NCBI GenBank assembly: GCA_022821775.1 | Contig: JAJECY010000296.1 | Location: forward strand, 1 to 35,102 | Direction: 5' to 3' | Source of the DNA: Acidobacteriota bacterium | GTDB lineage: Bacteria > Acidobacteriota > Terriglobia > Versatilivoradales > Versatilivoraceae | Length of the DNA: 35,102 nucleotides | Shown: positions 2,923-15,751 of the stretch, piece after piece | How the letters are laid out: every line of letters begins with the position of its first letter | How positions within the stretch are numbered: position 1 is the stretch's first letter | Notes under the pieces: model-generated | Database searches by the model: none | Told to the model about the DNA's origin: nothing | What the model saw: the letters and a program-made list of their open reading frames with translations, nothing else | Position numbers and translations under genes: made by a program

Positions 2923-2952
2923 TTGACAAGCTTTTTGGGAGAGCGATATGGT
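2923..2952 (+). promoter_or_regulatory. Sigma70-like promoter for the FG-GAP protein gene
   Basis: A perfect -35 hexamer TTGACA (2923-2928) is separated by 18 bp from TATGGT (2947-2952). It lies about 120 bp upstream of the ATG at 3076 and is correctly oriented. Called from sequence match only. Confidence 0.6.
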
Positions 2953-3075
2953 TGGGCCGTCTATGGATCGACATCGTCAAACCTTTCCGGAGGCCCCTCG
3001 TTCAGGATTTCGGGAGAGGTGAGATCCGTACGGGAACCGTCGTTTGGAATCGAACTGGAGCGTGAGGTATCGGTC

Positions 3076-5919
3076 ATGATGAAGCCATTGGTGATGCTGA
3101 GCCCGGTCGTTTTGCTGGTGCTCTCCCCTCTGGGGATGGCTGGGGGTTCGGATGAGTCCGGTGACAGAGGCGCTGCCGGCAAGGGACGCTTCAGGGTCGT
3201 CCACCAGGGATTCGAGGCGTTCTCCAAGGGCGAATTCGAGCATGCCGGTCAGAATATCTATGTTTCCCGCGGCGGGCGCATCCAGCTCATTCACCGCTGG
3301 GACCTCAACAACGACGGTTACTACGAGTTTGTCTTCAGCAATACCCATAACGTGATGGTGGGTGGGGTGGATGCGCTGGGATACCTGCAGACGGGTCGCG
3401 GATTTCGTTCCGCCATCTCGCCCGTCCACCGCTCCATTGCCCTCTACGACCTTTGGCTCCAGGAGGAGAAGAGTCGAGACCGGGTGGTCCGCTTTCCGGT
3501 CGAGCGTCCCGGAGCGGTGCGATTTCACGATCTGGACCGGGACGGCTGGACGGACGTTCTTTTTGCCTCGTCGGGGGCCGGAGACACCGTCTCGACCGAC
3601 AGCCTGGTCTACTGGGGCGATGCTACCGGGTATCGGACGCTGAGACGGGTGGCGCTGCCCACGGTCGGAGCCCGGGACCTGGCGGTCGGAGACTTGAACC
3701 GGGACGGCTACACCGACATCGTTTTCGCCAATTCCGGCAGCCGCAAGCCCCCGAAAATCAACGAGGGATCCTATATCTACTGGGGTTCGGGCGACCGCTA
3801 CGGGACGCACCACCGGAGCGCGGTGCCGACGCGGTCGGCAGTCGGCTGCGCCTTGGGCGACGTGAACGGAGACGGCCACCTGGATCTGATCTTCGCCACC
3901 TCGGAACAGGACGGGGGCGGGCTGTGGCTTTATCCGGGCTCGCCCCAAGGACCGGATCTGAAGTCCCCGGTCCAGGTTCCGGTCCCCGACCTGCAGTCGG
4001 TGCGTGTCGGGGAGGTCGAGGGACTGGGCGGGGTCGTGCTGGCCCTGTCCAGGAAACACGTGAGGTTGTTTGCCTGGGATTCGGGAAGGCTGGAGGAGAA
4101 AAAGACCCTGGCCCTGGGAGGCGCCCGGGCGGTTCTGGCCGATCTGGATCTGGATCGACGGACCGACCTGGTGGTGGCAAGCGGCGACCGCTCCGCCGTC
4201 TTGTGGGGGAAGTCGGACTGGTCGACCGAAGAGGCTCTGTGGTTGCCCACCCTGGAGGCCACCGACGTGGCGGTGGCCGATCTCAATGGCGACGGCCGGC
4301 CCGAGATCGCCTTTGCCAACCAGTTGAAGGGAACCCACGGGGATCTGGATGTGGACTCCTATGTTTACTGGGGAGAACCCTGGGGCTACGGGCCGGAAAG
4401 CCGCACCGATCTCCAGACCTTTGGCGCCACCGCCGTAGCCGCCGGCGACATCGACCGGGACGGCCGGCTGGACCTTCTCTTCGGAAACTCGGGCAGCGGC
4501 ATCCAGGGTGGAAAGGGTGAAGAGATCTACGTCTACTGGGGACGACCCCACCGCGGCTACAGTCCCGCCGCCATGACGGCCTATCCTTGCGTGATGGGGA
4601 TGGCCACCCTGATGGCGGATCTGGATGACGACGATCACGCCGAGCTGCTGGTGGCCAATTCCGGCCGCCACTACAGTGGGGAAGCGGGGGCCAGCTACAT
4701 TTACCGGGGCGGACCCTCCGGCCCGGCCCTGCAGGGCCGACTGGAAGTTCCCGCTCAGGAGGTGGGCTCCTGGTCGGTGGCCGACCTCAACCGGGACGGC
4801 TTCCTGGATGTCCTGGCTTGCGACTTCGATTCCCTGGCCATCGCCTGGGGTTCGGCAACGGGCGTTTCCACCGATCCCCAACGCGTCGTGGGAGTGGCCA
4901 AGGCCACCCAGAACTGCCGCCTGGTGGACTTCAACCGGGATGGCTGGCTGGACGTTCTGGTGGCCGACGTGCAGGGCTTGAGGAGCCGGGTGTTGTTGGG
5001 GGACGGACGGGGATTTTCGCTGGATCGGTCGGCCTGGCTGGAGGCGGCTTATGTCGCCAACAGCGAGTTTGCCGATCTGGACGGGGACGGCTGGCTCGAT
5101 ATGATGCTCACCCGGTCCTACAACTCCCTGGACCGCAACGATTCCTGGGTCAGGGTCTACCCCGGCGGCCCCGATGGATTCGCTCCAACGCACCGATTCG
5201 AGTTCGCCACCTCGGGCGCTTTCGATCTGGCCGTGGCCGACCTCGACCGCGACGGCGACCTGGATATCGCCGTTTCGCAGTACTCTTCCCGCGACCGGCG
5301 CAATTTACCCGTCTATCTTTTCTGGAACGATGGCGCCGGCCGATTTTCTTCCGGGAGACGGACGGATCTGCCGGCGGAGAGCTCTTCCGGGCTGCTGGCC
5401 GCGGATTTCGACGAAGACGGACACCCGGACCTGCTGGTCTTCAACCACAAAACCACCTACAAGGAAGACAATCATACCAACGAGAGCTTCGTCTACTGGG
5501 GGTCTCCCCGGGGCTACCACACCCGCAATCGCAGCTATCTGCCGGCCCACGGACCCCACTTCATGCAGAACGTGGACATTGGAAACCTGTCCAGCCGCGA
5601 GGCCGCGGAATCCTACCTGTCGGCTCCTATTGAGCTGACTCCGCGGTCCCGGAAGCTGGTTCTTTCCTTCCAGGCGGAAACTCCCCTGGGTTCGGGGGTC
5701 AGCTTCGGAGTGCGTGCGGCCGCAACCCCGGACGGTCTGGCGGACGCGGGGTGGCGGGAACTCGGACCTGGCGGAGGGTTCACTACCGGGAAGGGAGACC
5801 GCTGGCTGCAGTACAGGGCGACGCTGAAAGCGGGGCGGGGACATGCCACGCCTTACCTGACCCGCGTGGCCATCGAGGCAGCGGCGAATGGAGAGCGGCG
5901 AGTGGAGAGTGAAGAGTGA
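3076..5919 (+). CDS. Secreted FG-GAP/VCBS repeat beta-propeller protein
   Basis: About 947 residues from the ATG at 3076, which follows a TGAGGT ribosome site and opens a clear Sec signal peptide (MMKPLVMLSPVVLLVLSPLG, then AGG). Longer in-frame starts upstream would bury the signal and overlap the promoter. The body has 13 calcium-loop repeats of the D-x-[DN]-x-D-G-x-x-[DE] kind followed by hydrophobic strands, for example DLNRDGYTDIVFANSG, DVNGDGHLDLIFATS and DLDRDGDLDIAVSQ. This is the integrin-alpha FG-GAP/VCBS propeller signature; several repeats also share a SYVYWG-type strand. The last roughly 100 residues form a different, beta-rich module (SAPIELTPRSRKLVLSF through RWLQYRATLKAG). No enzymatic motif is seen; a cell-surface or extracellular binding role is inferred. 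The final codons (ERRVESEE) are contributed by the heptad repeat element at 5901. Confidence 0.85.
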   Translation: MMKPLVMLSPVVLLVLSPLGMAGGSDESGDRGAAGKGRFRVVHQGFEAFSKGEFEHAGQNIYVSRGGRIQLIHRWDLNNDGYYEFVFSNTHNVMVGGVDALGYLQTGRGFRSAISPVHRSIALYDLWLQEEKSRDRVVRFPVERPGAVRFHDLDRDGWTDVLFASSGAGDTVSTDSLVYWGDATGYRTLRRVALPTVGARDLAVGDLNRDGYTDIVFANSGSRKPPKINEGSYIYWGSGDRYGTHHRSAVPTRSAVGCALGDVNGDGHLDLIFATSEQDGGGLWLYPGSPQGPDLKSPVQVPVPDLQSVRVGEVEGLGGVVLALSRKHVRLFAWDSGRLEEKKTLALGGARAVLADLDLDRRTDLVVASGDRSAVLWGKSDWSTEEALWLPTLEATDVAVADLNGDGRPEIAFANQLKGTHGDLDVDSYVYWGEPWGYGPESRTDLQTFGATAVAAGDIDRDGRLDLLFGNSGSGIQGGKGEEIYVYWGRPHRGYSPAAMTAYPCVMGMATLMADLDDDDHAELLVANSGRHYSGEAGASYIYRGGPSGPALQGRLEVPAQEVGSWSVADLNRDGFLDVLACDFDSLAIAWGSATGVSTDPQRVVGVAKATQNCRLVDFNRDGWLDVLVADVQGLRSRVLLGDGRGFSLDRSAWLEAAYVANSEFADLDGDGWLDMMLTRSYNSLDRNDSWVRVYPGGPDGFAPTHRFEFATSGAFDLAVADLDRDGDLDIAVSQYSSRDRRNLPVYLFWNDGAGRFSSGRRTDLPAESSSGLLAADFDEDGHPDLLVFNHKTTYKEDNHTNESFVYWGSPRGYHTRNRSYLPAHGPHFMQNVDIGNLSSREAAESYLSAPIELTPRSRKLVLSFQAETPLGSGVSFGVRAAATPDGLADAGWRELGPGGGFTTGKGDRWLQYRATLKAGRGHATPYLTRVAIEAAANGERRVESEE

Positions 5920-6115: not shown

Positions 6116-6838
6116 TTATCGGTAGGATGATTCCAGGTTGGAAAAGACCAGCCGGCCGGCGGAATCCCGGTAGCTGACGATATCCGGCTTCACCCCACCC
6201 GCGGATGAGTCCGGCAGGTCCCGGCCGTAAAGCTGGGTGATCTTGTGGACGTAGTCCCGAGTCTCCCGGTAGGGAGGGATGCCGCCATGCTTGCGGACGG
6301 CGTGTTCACCGGCGTTGTAAGCCGCCAGCACCAGGGAAAGGCTGCCGGGAAAGCTATCCCGCAGAAACTTGAGATAGCGTACTCCCCCTTCAATATTCTG
6401 GGCGGGATCGTAGGCGTCCGCTACCCCGAACCGCTTGGCGGTCGCCGGCAGCAACTGCATGACTCCCAAGGCTCCCCTGGGGGAAACCGCCGCTGGATTG
6501 TAGTTGGACTCCACCCTGGCCACCGCGCTGACCAGCTCGGGATCCATCCCGTGCTTTCGAGCGATGCGATCGATGAGTCGTCCGATCCCGGCAGGAGGCT
6601 GCCCCCGTCGGCGGGTCCTCGGTGATGCGCCTGCCTGGGGCATCGCGGCTGAACCGGGCGGGGCTATGGCAGTGTTTCGAGTATTGGAGAATATGCGGCG
6701 TCCGTCGGGTCCGGTGAAGCTGTCGATCTGCCCGTCGATCGGGATCGGGCACACGACCAGGGTGAACAGGCAGACGGCCGAAGCCATGTTCCGGTTCAGG
6801 TTCCAACCGGGGATGTCGATTTTCGTGGGGGTAACCAT
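6116..6838 (-). CDS. Lytic murein transglycosylase (SLT family)
   Basis: About 240 residues from the ATG at 6838 (a TTG at 6865 and an ATG at 6787 are alternatives; none has a strong ribosome site). A hydrophobic segment (MASAVCLFTLVVCPIPIDGQ) acts as signal peptide or anchor. The SLT domain cleaves peptidoglycan in the periplasm: the catalytic glutamate is E110 in RVESNYNPAAVSPRGALGVMQ, followed by the LAAYNAGE and IPPYRETRDYV motifs of family 1 transglycosylases. Before and after the domain are two short look-alike motifs, DGRRIFSN and AGRLVFSN, each resembling the small strand unit often seen at the N-terminus of such proteins. The gene lies about 190 bp downstream of alaS on the same strand and is probably transcribed separately. 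Confidence 0.9.
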   Translation of the reverse strand: MVTPTKIDIPGWNLNRNMASAVCLFTLVVCPIPIDGQIDSFTGPDGRRIFSNTRNTAIAPPGSAAMPQAGASPRTRRRGQPPAGIGRLIDRIARKHGMDPELVSAVARVESNYNPAAVSPRGALGVMQLLPATAKRFGVADAYDPAQNIEGGVRYLKFLRDSFPGSLSLVLAAYNAGEHAVRKHGGIPPYRETRDYVHKITQLYGRDLPDSSAGGVKPDIVSYRDSAGRLVFSNLESSYR

Positions 6839-7027
6839 GGGAACGGGAGCTGGATGATGGGACAACGTTCTCTCTCTCAGGAATTGTAGATGGTTCGGAA
6901 CCGGAAAAAGTCTAATGGTTCCTGCAAGGACCAGTGACCGGCGGTGTCTTCCCGGCCAGCCCCAACCCTGCGGATTGATTGGCGCGACTGAAGAGTGGAC
7001 GGGTCAACCCGCCCCTGATGTTCTGTC

Positions 7028-11275: not shown

Positions 11276-11387
11276 CCGCCAAAAGATGGCCCGATGGACC
11301 CGGACACACGGTCTGACGGGTCATTGTCGTGGGGTGAGAAGTGCGGGCGCGAACGAGCTTCCGGCCGCATCCCGGGGGAGCGTTCGG

Positions 11388-14300
11388 CTACTCGAGCAGC
11401 AGCTTGACATCGGTTTCGAATTGCCGGTAGTCGGTGAAACGGGTGACGTTTCGAGTGTGGACCCGGGCACTCTGCAGGATGCCGATGGACATGTGGAACT
11501 GAGCCAGGACCGGAAGCCAGTGTTGGCTCTCCCCGATGTGGACCTGGTCATAGGCGATGCTCACCTCCGAGGTCTTGACCGGGAAATCCTCGGGGAGATC
11601 CACCGTCTCTTTGATCAGTTTGACCACTTGGTAGGAGTTGACGTCGATCCAGCACAGTCCCCGGTAACCCACCCGCAGCGGATTGCCCTGGTAGGTCACT
11701 TGAAGAGCGGAGGTCTCCTGCGGAATCCGAAAGGCCACCCGCACGGTCCGACGGCCCGCGATCTCCTCGGCGCCCTCCAGGCGGAAGGAGGTCCTGCTCA
11801 GAGGCGTGAACACGTTTTGGATAGCGGCGGCGAATTGACCGATGGAATAAGCGCCCTCCTGGCTGCCCGATGCCTTTTGCCCCTCCACGGGTTGATAGGT
11901 CTCTTGTCCATTCGCGAACAGGAGGTCCTCCTGGAACCGGTCCTTCTTCTGCCAACCCTGGAACAGCCGCTCGAATCGCTCTGTCCGGCGGCGACAGACG
12001 AAGTCGGGCAGGTTCCCGAAGGTTGCGTCCAACCTGCGGCGGACGGCATCCAGAAAATCCGGCCATTCGGCGTCGGTCGGCACCCCGCCGGGTTGACCGG
12101 TGGCAAGAGTGGGCGCAACGGTGCCGCTGACGGTAAACTCCTCGGAACCGTTATCCATCATGAACTCGGGGCGATGGTAGGCGGACGGGGTGTCGGCGGG
12201 CTGCATTTTCCTGGTCTCGGCCTGTTGGGAATCGAAGGGCAATTGGGTGCTGTCGTCAAAGAGGGCCCCGGCAAAACGCGTTTTGCCGATCTTGATACTG
12301 CCGGCAAGGGGGATAAAAAGATTGGCCTCCCTTCCATCGACCAGAGCAGCTTGGGTCATTCTTGCGCCCCGAAGGTCGGCCTCCCTCAGGTCGCTGCCGA
12401 ACAGGACTGCTTCCGAAAGGTCGGCCACCTGCAGATTGGCCTTTTTCAAGCGGGCATCCTTCAGGATGGCTCCCTGCAAAATGGCGCCCAGCAAGTCGGC
12501 GCCTTCCAGGTTGGCTTGGGTCAGGCTGGCATCTGTCAGATCTGCCCCTTGCAGTCGTGCACCGTCCAGCTTGGCATTGATCAGTTCGGCGCCCGTCAGT
12601 TTGGCGCCCCGAAGATCGGCCCCTCTCAAGTCGGCCTCCCAGAGCCTGGCTTGGGTCAGGTCGGCTCTCAGCAGCACCGCGTCCCGCAGGTCGGCCTTGC
12701 GCAGGTCCATGCCGCTCAGGTTGGCTCCAAAGAGGTTCTTTCCCGTCAAGGTGTGCGACGGCAGTTGGTTTCCCCGCAGGTCGCCGCATTCTCCGGGATG
12801 ATCGGGGTTGTATCCCAGCTCTCCCTGGTCGTTGGCGCAGGCCAGGATATCGCCGCGGAATCGGAAGGCGACTGCATTAGCGCCGTTACCGGAAGACCGT
12901 GGGATTTCCAGGCTGTCCCTGATCCTATTCAGGTCCAGGCCGACGACCGGTTCCGAATCGGAGGTTGTTTCGACACGAGTTTCAGCGGTATTGAGCGGCG
13001 CCGGCACATCCGCGGACGCCGCCACTTCCGAGCCCTGCTTCACCACGAAATCGGTCTCTGTGATGGTGGCTCGGCCGCTGCCTGATTCCTCGGTGGTAAT
13101 CTCGAATCGGTAGTTGCCCGGGCTCAAGGATTGGGTGGACAGTTTGAAGCCCACCGCAACCTGACCGGGCGCCCGCTCTTCCAGGTGGTTCCGGTCCAGC
13201 GCGATCGGCGGAAAGTCGACGGCCTCACCCGTGTCCTTGACGGCCTGGACGCGAGCCGTGAGATTGCCGTCCTCCAGCTCGGAGGCGTTATAGAGCTTGT
13301 AGAAGGCGGCAAGAGGTTGGGGTGGAGTAATCTCGTTGCTGATCGCCGGCTTCACCCGGAACCCTCGGTGAAACAGCCAGCGGGCCTCCGGGACCTGCAT
13401 TCCGGCCACGGATGGGGAAAAGGGCTCCAGGTCCTGGCTCAAGACCAGGCCGCTGGTCATGAGCGCGTCCGGGGGCAGGGCCGGAATCCACAAGGACTCC
13501 TCGGCCGTCCCCAATTGGCCTCGGCGGTCGGCGGCCACCAGCTTGATGCGGTACTTGCCCGGCTTCAGCTTGAGAAATCCCTGCACGGCTGATTCCGCCT
13601 TCCCGTTTGCCAGCGGGAGAGTCTGGCCGAAAAGCGATTCCGCCTGCCCGTCCTCAGAAAAGGCAACTCCCATCAGGCGAAGATCATTCCCCGGCAACCA
13701 GCTCTTGGGGGTATTCTCGACCTTTCCGGGGGAAACCTTGGCCGTGATCAGGACCAGAGCCTGCTCGGATTCCTGGTAGAAGAAGTTGGCCTTGAAATCC
13801 AGGTTTAGATCCTGGTGCCGGTCGGAGGCCTGCAGTCCGCGGAGCGCGGTCTTTTCCAGGGTTCCCATGGTATCCCGGTCCTTCGGCAGGGGCACCTCGA
13901 CCATGCGGCGGAGAGATCCCAGTCCGGCGTTGAGGTTCTCCCGGGCCGCGACCTTGACCTGGTACCGCCCCGCTGGAACCTCCAGCACGACCTTGGAGGT
14001 CAGACCCGATTTCAGCAGAGCCTGGTAGCTGCTGTCGCCGAGCTTGAAGTTCCAGGCCTTCTCGTCGCCGCCGACATACTCCTCCTTGGCATCGAAGGCG
14101 ACCACCGCCAGGTTGATCCGATTGAACCGCTTGCCCTCTTCGACCAGGAAAGGAAGATCCTCAAAGCCCAGGCGGGTCACGATCTCCAACCGGTAGGTGT
14201 CTCCATCCAGGCGGGAGCTGTGGTAGGACATTCGCAACGGAATTTCCCTCAGATCGGTGGGCGCCCGCATGGCTTCCAGCATTTCCTTCTTCTTCTGTTC

Positions 14301-15701
14301 TTCGGGGGACAATCGCTCCTTGGGGGCAAAGAAGCCCTTGCGGTGAGTGACCCGGACTCCGGGCCGCGAGACTTTCACTCGAAGCCTGTAGTAGCGCCCG
14401 TCGGGCTTCTTGGGAGGGGTGGCGTAGCTCAGGACGTAGTAGGAAAACTGCTGGTCCACCACCTTGCTCAGACCCGACCCCAGGTCGTTGTTGTCTTTGA
14501 AAGAGATGCCTCCCGTAGCCATGGCCAGGTAATCGAGGGCCATGCCCTTTTGCCTGCGGTCCTCGGTGACCAGCAAGGCCTTTTCAAGCCGGAGATTGCT
14601 GTTTTCGGTGAAAGTTTCGCTGACGTCGTACATGGAGCTGGTTTCCAGCCCGGTGATCCGGATGGTGTTGAAGATGATGCCGGTCGTCAGCGCCCGGTCG
14701 ACCAGGCGCTCCAGGTCATAGCGAAGCGCCCGGTGCAGGAAGCCTGCCGAGAGCAGCACCATGGATTTCTGCGCCTCCACCGGTCCGAGAGAGCGGATAT
14801 GCCCCCGCAGAACGTCCAGCAAGCGCCGGGTGCGGCCCGTTTTAAGGGACAGGTGCTGGGACGCCTGAGTGCGTACAAAGGCTTCCAGGGCCTGCTGGTT
14901 TGGATCGATTACGGTCGCGCCGACCCCGACTCGCTGTCTCTCGCTCAACGCGTTGGCCGAGGCTTCGCCAATCCCGCAGTCTTCGGCTTCGGACATGGCC
15001 ACGTCGAAGGCCCGGCTGCCCGGCGAGGACGAAATGACATGGATTTCCTCGGCTTGAGAATCGGTCATTCTGAGACATCCCGCTCGGTTCATGGCCGAGG
15101 TGAAGTCCAGCTTTTTGTGGAGTCTGTCAATCTCCGCCAATAGCAGTTCCCTGTCCTGGGTGTAGGGAACGAAATGGCCGCGGGAGGCGGTCAGGATAGA
15201 GATGTAGTTTTCAGCTCTCAACCCCCTGTCCACAAATCCGCGAACGGCCTGGATGGTGCGCTGGAGGGTTCCCATTGGCGGGTAGGTGAGATCGTCGATG
15301 ACCAGGCTCAGCAGGCGGGGCTTTGGGAGAGCCTCCTCAGGCGCCGGATCTTCCGCTCCTATCGCGCTGCCCCAGGTCAGGGAATCTTGCGAGCCCTGGT
15401 AGATTTCCTGGGAAAACGACTGGATGGTCTGCTCCTTGCGGTTTTCGAGGACTTCGAAGTCGTCGACGGTCAGATCGGTGACGGGGTTCCCGTCCCGGTC
15501 GGTGACGATGGCGTTGACCACCACCACTTCGACCGGCACCTTGAGGGTGAACCCGGAGGAGGACTGGCCGCGGATGTTTTCGGTTTCCCGGGCCTCGGAA
15601 GCCGCGGCCACCGGGACCGGCGCCAGGGCCACTGCCAACCAACCGGCAACCAGGATTCCCGACAGAATTGCACCAGGGAGATGGGACCTTCCGAGAGACA
15701 T
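11388..15701 (-). CDS. Secreted VWFA-related acidobacterial protein fused to pentapeptide repeats
   Basis: About 1437 residues from the ATG at 15701, which has AGGTGC at good spacing (a GTG at 15710 is nine bases further up). A signal peptide covers residues 1 to about 34. Residues 45 to about 460 form the VWFA-related acidobacterial domain (VEVVVVNAIVTDRDGNPV, TVDDFEVLEN, YYVLSYATP, RKGFFAP); the metal site reads VIDDLTYPP, so the usual DxSxS is not intact. Beta-rich unrecognised modules follow to about 900. Residues about 985-1130 (DNA 12320-12746) are pentapeptide repeats A[DN]Lxx that predict a right-handed beta-helix. Residues 1215-1437 form a domain beginning FLDAVRRRLDATFGNLPDFVCRR, frequent in acidobacterial exported proteins. 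Function unknown; extracytoplasmic binding or scaffold is inferred. The order VWFA, pentapeptide, LPDFVC domain in one chain seems unusual. Confidence 0.85.
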   Translation of the reverse strand: MSLGRSHLPGAILSGILVAGWLAVALAPVPVAAASEARETENIRGQSSSGFTLKVPVEVVVVNAIVTDRDGNPVTDLTVDDFEVLENRKEQTIQSFSQEIYQGSQDSLTWGSAIGAEDPAPEEALPKPRLLSLVIDDLTYPPMGTLQRTIQAVRGFVDRGLRAENYISILTASRGHFVPYTQDRELLLAEIDRLHKKLDFTSAMNRAGCLRMTDSQAEEIHVISSSPGSRAFDVAMSEAEDCGIGEASANALSERQRVGVGATVIDPNQQALEAFVRTQASQHLSLKTGRTRRLLDVLRGHIRSLGPVEAQKSMVLLSAGFLHRALRYDLERLVDRALTTGIIFNTIRITGLETSSMYDVSETFTENSNLRLEKALLVTEDRRQKGMALDYLAMATGGISFKDNNDLGSGLSKVVDQQFSYYVLSYATPPKKPDGRYYRLRVKVSRPGVRVTHRKGFFAPKERLSPEEQKKKEMLEAMRAPTDLREIPLRMSYHSSRLDGDTYRLEIVTRLGFEDLPFLVEEGKRFNRINLAVVAFDAKEEYVGGDEKAWNFKLGDSSYQALLKSGLTSKVVLEVPAGRYQVKVAARENLNAGLGSLRRMVEVPLPKDRDTMGTLEKTALRGLQASDRHQDLNLDFKANFFYQESEQALVLITAKVSPGKVENTPKSWLPGNDLRLMGVAFSEDGQAESLFGQTLPLANGKAESAVQGFLKLKPGKYRIKLVAADRRGQLGTAEESLWIPALPPDALMTSGLVLSQDLEPFSPSVAGMQVPEARWLFHRGFRVKPAISNEITPPQPLAAFYKLYNASELEDGNLTARVQAVKDTGEAVDFPPIALDRNHLEERAPGQVAVGFKLSTQSLSPGNYRFEITTEESGSGRATITETDFVVKQGSEVAASADVPAPLNTAETRVETTSDSEPVVGLDLNRIRDSLEIPRSSGNGANAVAFRFRGDILACANDQGELGYNPDHPGECGDLRGNQLPSHTLTGKNLFGANLSGMDLRKADLRDAVLLRADLTQARLWEADLRGADLRGAKLTGAELINAKLDGARLQGADLTDASLTQANLEGADLLGAILQGAILKDARLKKANLQVADLSEAVLFGSDLREADLRGARMTQAALVDGREANLFIPLAGSIKIGKTRFAGALFDDSTQLPFDSQQAETRKMQPADTPSAYHRPEFMMDNGSEEFTVSGTVAPTLATGQPGGVPTDAEWPDFLDAVRRRLDATFGNLPDFVCRRRTERFERLFQGWQKKDRFQEDLLFANGQETYQPVEGQKASGSQEGAYSIGQFAAAIQNVFTPLSRTSFRLEGAEEIAGRRTVRVAFRIPQETSALQVTYQGNPLRVGYRGLCWIDVNSYQVVKLIKETVDLPEDFPVKTSEVSIAYDQVHIGESQHWLPVLAQFHMSIGILQSARVHTRNVTRFTDYRQFETDVKLLLE

Positions 15702-15751
15702 GGTCTGCACCTGTTTTTGGAGGATTGTTGCACACCGGAAAACGGTAACTC

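Follow-up and report, generated by a model that had tools for sequence, protein, structure and literature searches.

An exported 1437-residue protein of Acidobacteria with a VWFA domain, a pentapeptide solenoid and a predicted LolA-like half-barrel in one chain

Results

Gene and protein

The window, the whole stretch of 35,102 nucleotides that was analysed, contains on its minus strand an uninterrupted open reading frame (11388-15710) that starts with the ATG codon at 15701 and ends with the stop codon at 11388-11390. The encoded protein, termed the giant (11391-15701), consists of 1437 amino acid residues, and all parts of it described below are encoded by the same strand. The assignment of this gene is based on the open frame, on end-to-end orthologues and on the dN/dS ratio, which is 0.27-0.34 for the whole gene when the window gene is compared with four congeneric copies. 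All modules of the protein are under purifying selection. The gene is rich in G+C, and plus-strand frames over it, such as that at 11286-13085, are interpreted as antisense shadows. The initial annotation placed a VWFA part, pentapeptide repeats and an LPDFVC domain in a single secreted chain, and this proposal is borne out by one open frame with a signal peptide that exceeds the cutoffs of both TIGR03436 and PF00805.

The signal peptide (residues 1-36, 15594-15701) is typical, has the sequence MSLGRSHLPGAILSGILVAGWLAVALAPVPVAAAS and lacks a lipobox cysteine, the first cysteine of the protein being residue 209. The mature protein contains six cysteines, all of which are invariant in the six orthologues. 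They form the pairs 209/242, 955/972 and 1236/1350, each of which is confined to one module, so that disulfide bonds are probably formed within the modules. The signal peptide and the three invariant cysteine pairs fit an exported, disulfide-bonded protein. Over approximately 14400-15300, the DNA and the copy in genome G005 (locus L101) share 99-99.7% identity, whereas the remaining gene is mostly 85-94% identical to this copy, a mosaic that suggests recombination. Elsewhere in the window, a gene for an FG-GAP repeat protein of 998 residues (2923-5919) adjoins an SLT transglycosylase gene (6116-6865).

N-terminal half

Residues 52-460 (14322-15548) are assigned to the acidobacterial VWFA domain TIGR03436, with a score of 169.4 bits against the curated NCBIfam cutoff of 81.25. 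The AlphaFold model of residues 41-1200 (mean pLDDT 74.8, pTM 0.52) shows a VWA fold, beta-sandwiches, disorder at approximately residues 892-966, a solenoid and a disordered linker, and its VWFA region is an alpha/beta fold with pLDDT mostly of 80-94. A beta-sandwich that regularly follows TIGR03436 is located at residues ~485-605 (13887-14249), as indicated by the model strands and by the profile alignment of the relatives, which reaches residue ~605. Two Ig-like or macroglobulin-like beta-sandwiches (residues 610-895, 13017-13874) are suggested by sequence comparison, the model and a fold search. The giant has two or three beta-sandwich domains. Because this beta-sandwich stretch of ~300 residues separates the VWFA part from the pentapeptides, the pentapeptide block is not directly beside the VWFA domain. 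What the initial annotation regarded as an insertion between the VWFA and C-terminal domains is better described as part of an exported cap-pentapeptide-LPDFVC module, and the giant resembles two fused modules rather than a VWFA protein with an added block.

The classical VWA metal site (MIDAS), which has DxSxS, T and D as ligands, is degenerate. D136 is kept, but DxSxS is replaced by DDLTY, and the third motif is SAG, SGG or SNG in the giants, in which the aspartate is replaced by alanine, glycine or asparagine, whereas most paralogues with TPR-like repeats keep SDG. None of the 38 aligned TIGR03436 relatives retains DxSxS. As judged from these alignments, the degeneracy noticed in the initial annotation is genuine and mostly family-wide. 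It was also read as hinting at a structural or binding role, but loss of DxSxS across the relatives compared gives no special hint about the role of the giant.

Pentapeptide solenoid

A cap with two cysteines (C955 and C972, 12777-12857), which is also found in separate pentapeptide-LPDFVC proteins, precedes 30 pentapeptide repeats in a single unbroken register (residues 973-1122, 12336-12785). The repeats are assigned to PF00805, a family of tandem A(D/N)LXX repeats that form a quadrilateral solenoid, with 119 bits against the Pfam cutoff of 20. The A-x-L rule fits 25 of the 30 repeats in the best register, against at most nine in 10,000 same-residue shuffles. The block of about 28 repeats previously placed at 12320-12746 is thus real, but slightly longer and offset. 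In the model of residues 41-1200, the solenoid is predicted in a regular pattern with pLDDT of 91-96 and superposes on the solved pentapeptide solenoid 4ycq with 0.6 Å over 137 columns. A flexible linker with pLDDT of ~30 follows (residues 1123-1200, 12102-12335).

Sharing of the pentapeptide fold with Qnr and MfpA might suggest that the giant mimics DNA and binds gyrase. However, the signal peptide places the protein outside the cytoplasm, and the best Qnr/MfpA model scores 47.6 bits against a cutoff of 360. In contrast to the acidic surface expected of a DNA mimic, the solenoid is nearly neutral (net charge of -2 over 137 residues). This role is rejected on the model scores and the charge, and is extremely improbable. 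The giant shares the repeat and the predicted solenoid with HetL, Alr5209, the Rfr fold and the synthetic beta1 solenoid, but differs from other pentapeptide repeat proteins in that its solenoid is exported, neutral, preceded by the two-cysteine cap and embedded in a chain of 1437 residues.

LPDFVC domain

The LPDFVC domain (residues 1205-1437, 11391-12089) matches no Pfam or NCBIfam family, and a sequence search of the PDB with its profile gives nothing meaningful. It was modelled with AlphaFold2 from 63 sequences (mean pLDDT 87.7, pTM 0.84). The first 15 PDB matches of this model in Foldseek all belong to the LolA superfamily or DUF1329, and include LolA, LolB, RseB, LprG, LprF, LppX and DUF1329 proteins. 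The E values are as low as 1e-5 and the probability is 1.00, with TM-scores of only 0.26-0.46 for these 15 matches and an identity of ~10%. Thus, the domain is predicted with high confidence to have a half-barrel fold like that of LolA, LolB, RseB and LprG. The model supports membership of the LolA superfamily by fold only and not of the LolA family, since PF03548 is absent from the Pfam hits of all 19 LPDFVC members. The LolA-like part of the giant shares the half-barrel with helices with this superfamily, but differs from it in having no match at the sequence level and in lying at the C-terminus of a multidomain protein. Because canonical LolA has a gene of its own at another place in these genomes, the possibility that the giant is the LolA of the cell is rejected. 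The domain is found in 101 of the 297 genomes sampled across the phylum (about a third), often in several copies (up to nine matches per genome, among at most nine candidates scored). For what the initial annotation called an acidobacterial exported-protein domain, a known type of fold can thus be predicted.

Nine PDB matches have E values of 0.001 or less, and these include RseB. An alternative is therefore an RseB-like sensor of envelope stress, in which the half-barrel would detect mislocalised lipids or lipoproteins and the remaining chain would relay this signal to a partner, a role compatible with the protein contacts that VWFA domains commonly mediate. However, no regulatory partner such as an anti-sigma factor or a protease adjoins either copy of the gene, the neighbours being leuS, ilvE, recX and alaS at one locus and PSCyt and DUF1501 genes at the other. 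Such a sensor is rather improbable.

Distribution, loci and duplication

The initial annotation regarded the architecture as unfamiliar, provided that it is neither widespread nor produced by misassembly. The whole-protein profile was searched against 12 genomes of the order, 299 of the class and 297 of the phylum. End-to-end matches are found only in two genera of one order, Candidatus Versatilivorator and a relative from ALOHA; the named records include Candidatus Versatilivorator vitaminiformans, the Terriglobia chromosome OX638355 and the ALOHA isolate. A wide distribution is not found in the 299 class and 297 phylum genomes, in which scoring was confined to the two best candidates of each genome, so that convergent fusions of very divergent sequence may have escaped detection. 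As far as the sequences of these genomes indicate, the combination of VWFA domain, pentapeptide rod and LolA-like cup in one chain is unseen elsewhere, and the gene is conserved in what appears to be a small, marine lineage of Acidobacteria. A literature search on TIGR03436, VWFA-related Acidobacteria and Versatilivorator found no description in the papers covered. One TIGR03436-type protein (L111, 9803-12076) comes from a record that bears the gammaproteobacterial name Woeseiaceae, which reflects either a mislabelled bin or transfer; the L114 record is likewise labelled Gemmatimonadetes.

Including the window gene, six end-to-end orthologues are present, with identities of 78-90% within the genus and 48-49% to the second genus of the family. 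With 312 contigs, the source genome is a draft, in which an assembly artefact might have joined two genes. However, the same join is present in five other complete genes from independent assemblies, at two loci and in the second genus, and one of these genes lies in a single-contig genome of 5.1 Mb. Misassembly is rejected, its probability being negligible.

Copy A, to which the window gene corresponds in position, is flanked by leuS on one side and by ilvE-recX-alaS on the other. Copy B is preceded by a PSCyt1/PSCyt2/PSD1 gene, a DUF1501 gene and a gene for 191 residues; the order is identical in the second genus, except that the 191-residue gene is absent. The ancestral-looking copy is directly downstream of the PSCyt/PSD1 and DUF1501 genes in both genera. 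The copy B genes form one well-supported branch, which indicates duplication within the genus; as judged from this tree, the giant gene has been duplicated and then retained. In the congeners G002, G004 and G006 only pieces of the gene are seen, which are either broken or located at the ends of contigs. Copy B of G006 (L053, 2275-6149) has a frame change at approximately residues 496-557 and lacks ~100 residues between ~735 and 875, and is a pseudogene or an assembly error. PSCyt proteins of another phylum are predicted to be periplasmic or cytoplasmic, not extracellular (PMC5615132). DUF1501 (PF07394) has 55 matches in the window genome and 48-56 in each member of the genus, compared with 0-9 in each of six further genomes from the class. 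Because DUF1501 genes number ~50 per genome, this neighbourhood, which is not that of the window gene, is weak evidence for function.

The presence of beta-sandwiches raises the possibility that the giant is a cell-surface or secreted adhesin or scaffold, in which the VWFA domain and beta-sandwiches bind cells or matrix, the pentapeptides form a stalk and the LolA-like domain serves as an anchor or cap. In the fold search, the string of beta-sandwiches also shows similarity to adhesins and macroglobulins, and sponge Acidobacteriota are rich in eukaryotic-like repeat proteins (PMC8163846). However, the giant shows no surface-sorting signal or transmembrane anchor, and the ALOHA relative, which its record name associates with open-ocean water, has the same protein, so that the protein does not depend on attachment to a host. 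In addition, LolA folds are typically periplasmic. An adhesin is possible but doubtful.

Origin of the modules

Ordinary TIGR03436 relatives of ~600 residues correspond to residues 1-605 of the giant and share its degenerate DxSxS, but end there, and the Ig-like part is carried by tandem partners or paralogues with TPR-like repeats. In five relatives (G007, G009, G010, G011 and G018), the end of the protein encoded by the next gene on the same strand matches residues 604-888, and this second protein carries TIGR03436 again in both relatives tested. The genus of the window has a paralogue of 1190-1234 residues in which the VWFA domain and this Ig-like region are followed by TPR-like repeats. 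In G001 this paralogue (L049, 4885-14042) lies between a GWxTD-domain gene and a large gene for an Oar/TonB-like outer-membrane barrel. Beyond this order, no TIGR03436 protein with pentapeptides and a LolA-like part was found.

A separate exported protein of 680-815 residues with the two-cysteine cap, pentapeptides and the LPDFVC domain is encoded in the same genomes. In the 703-residue protein G000:C292 of the window genome these parts are ordered as in the giant, but the VWFA/Ig half is absent. Because the cap-pentapeptide-LPDFVC module also exists as a separate protein, the giant seems to be composed of two fused modules, and it combines in one chain what is encoded by separate genes in relatives. 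Among ~75 LPDFVC frames, pentapeptides are found only in the giants and the separate pentapeptide proteins, and thus in this lineage alone. In the LPDFVC tree these two groups form different branches, which group with a pentapeptide-free pair (83/85 support). On this tree, a clade made up solely of giants and separate pentapeptide proteins is rejected (AU p of 0.003), so that the domain was joined with pentapeptides either twice, or once with subsequent loss.

Discussion

The giant has a new architecture, although its domains are of known kinds. For VMAP/vWA conflict systems, vWA proteins have been described that carry superstructure-forming repeats, including pentapeptide repeats (PMC7159879). 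These systems are NTP-dependent, whereas the giant has a signal peptide, a TIGR03436-type VWFA domain and a LolA-like domain.

From the architecture, the export signal, the conservation, the predicted folds and the lineage distribution, we infer a cellular location, a ligand class and a mode of action. We propose, with a probability of roughly 40%, that the giant is an exported envelope protein in which a single chain provides a head for binding, a spacer that is rigid and a cup for a hydrophobic ligand, and that it arose by fusion of a VWFA/beta-sandwich module with a cap-pentapeptide-LolA-like module. The N-terminal half would bind, with no need for a metal ion, to a fixed partner that is either periplasmic or located on the inner side of the outer membrane. 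The uninterrupted solenoid of ~7.5 turns would serve both as a stiff spacer and as a surface for docking. The flexible linker would allow the C-terminal cup to catch its ligand, which may be a lipid, a lipoprotein acyl chain or a similar molecule, near the partner of the N-terminal half. A more specific and rather speculative version of this proposal is that the giant is a tethered carrier, in which the VWFA/Ig head and the rigid rod set the LolA-type cup at a fixed distance in the envelope, so that a fixed machine rather than a diffusing chaperone would catch or hand over hydrophobic cargo. The match to LolA by fold only, the inclusion of sensors in the superfamily and the presence of LolA elsewhere in the genomes count against the proposal as a whole.

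The fold assignment of the LPDFVC domain, which depends on the model, is the main new result. The predicted fold gives a testable function, binding of a hydrophobic ligand, to an uncharacterised domain that about a third of the sampled Acidobacteria genomes encode. The giant also shows how new envelope proteins arise, in a lineage whose families of exported VWFA proteins are large, from the joining of modules that are kept apart or adjacent in its relatives.
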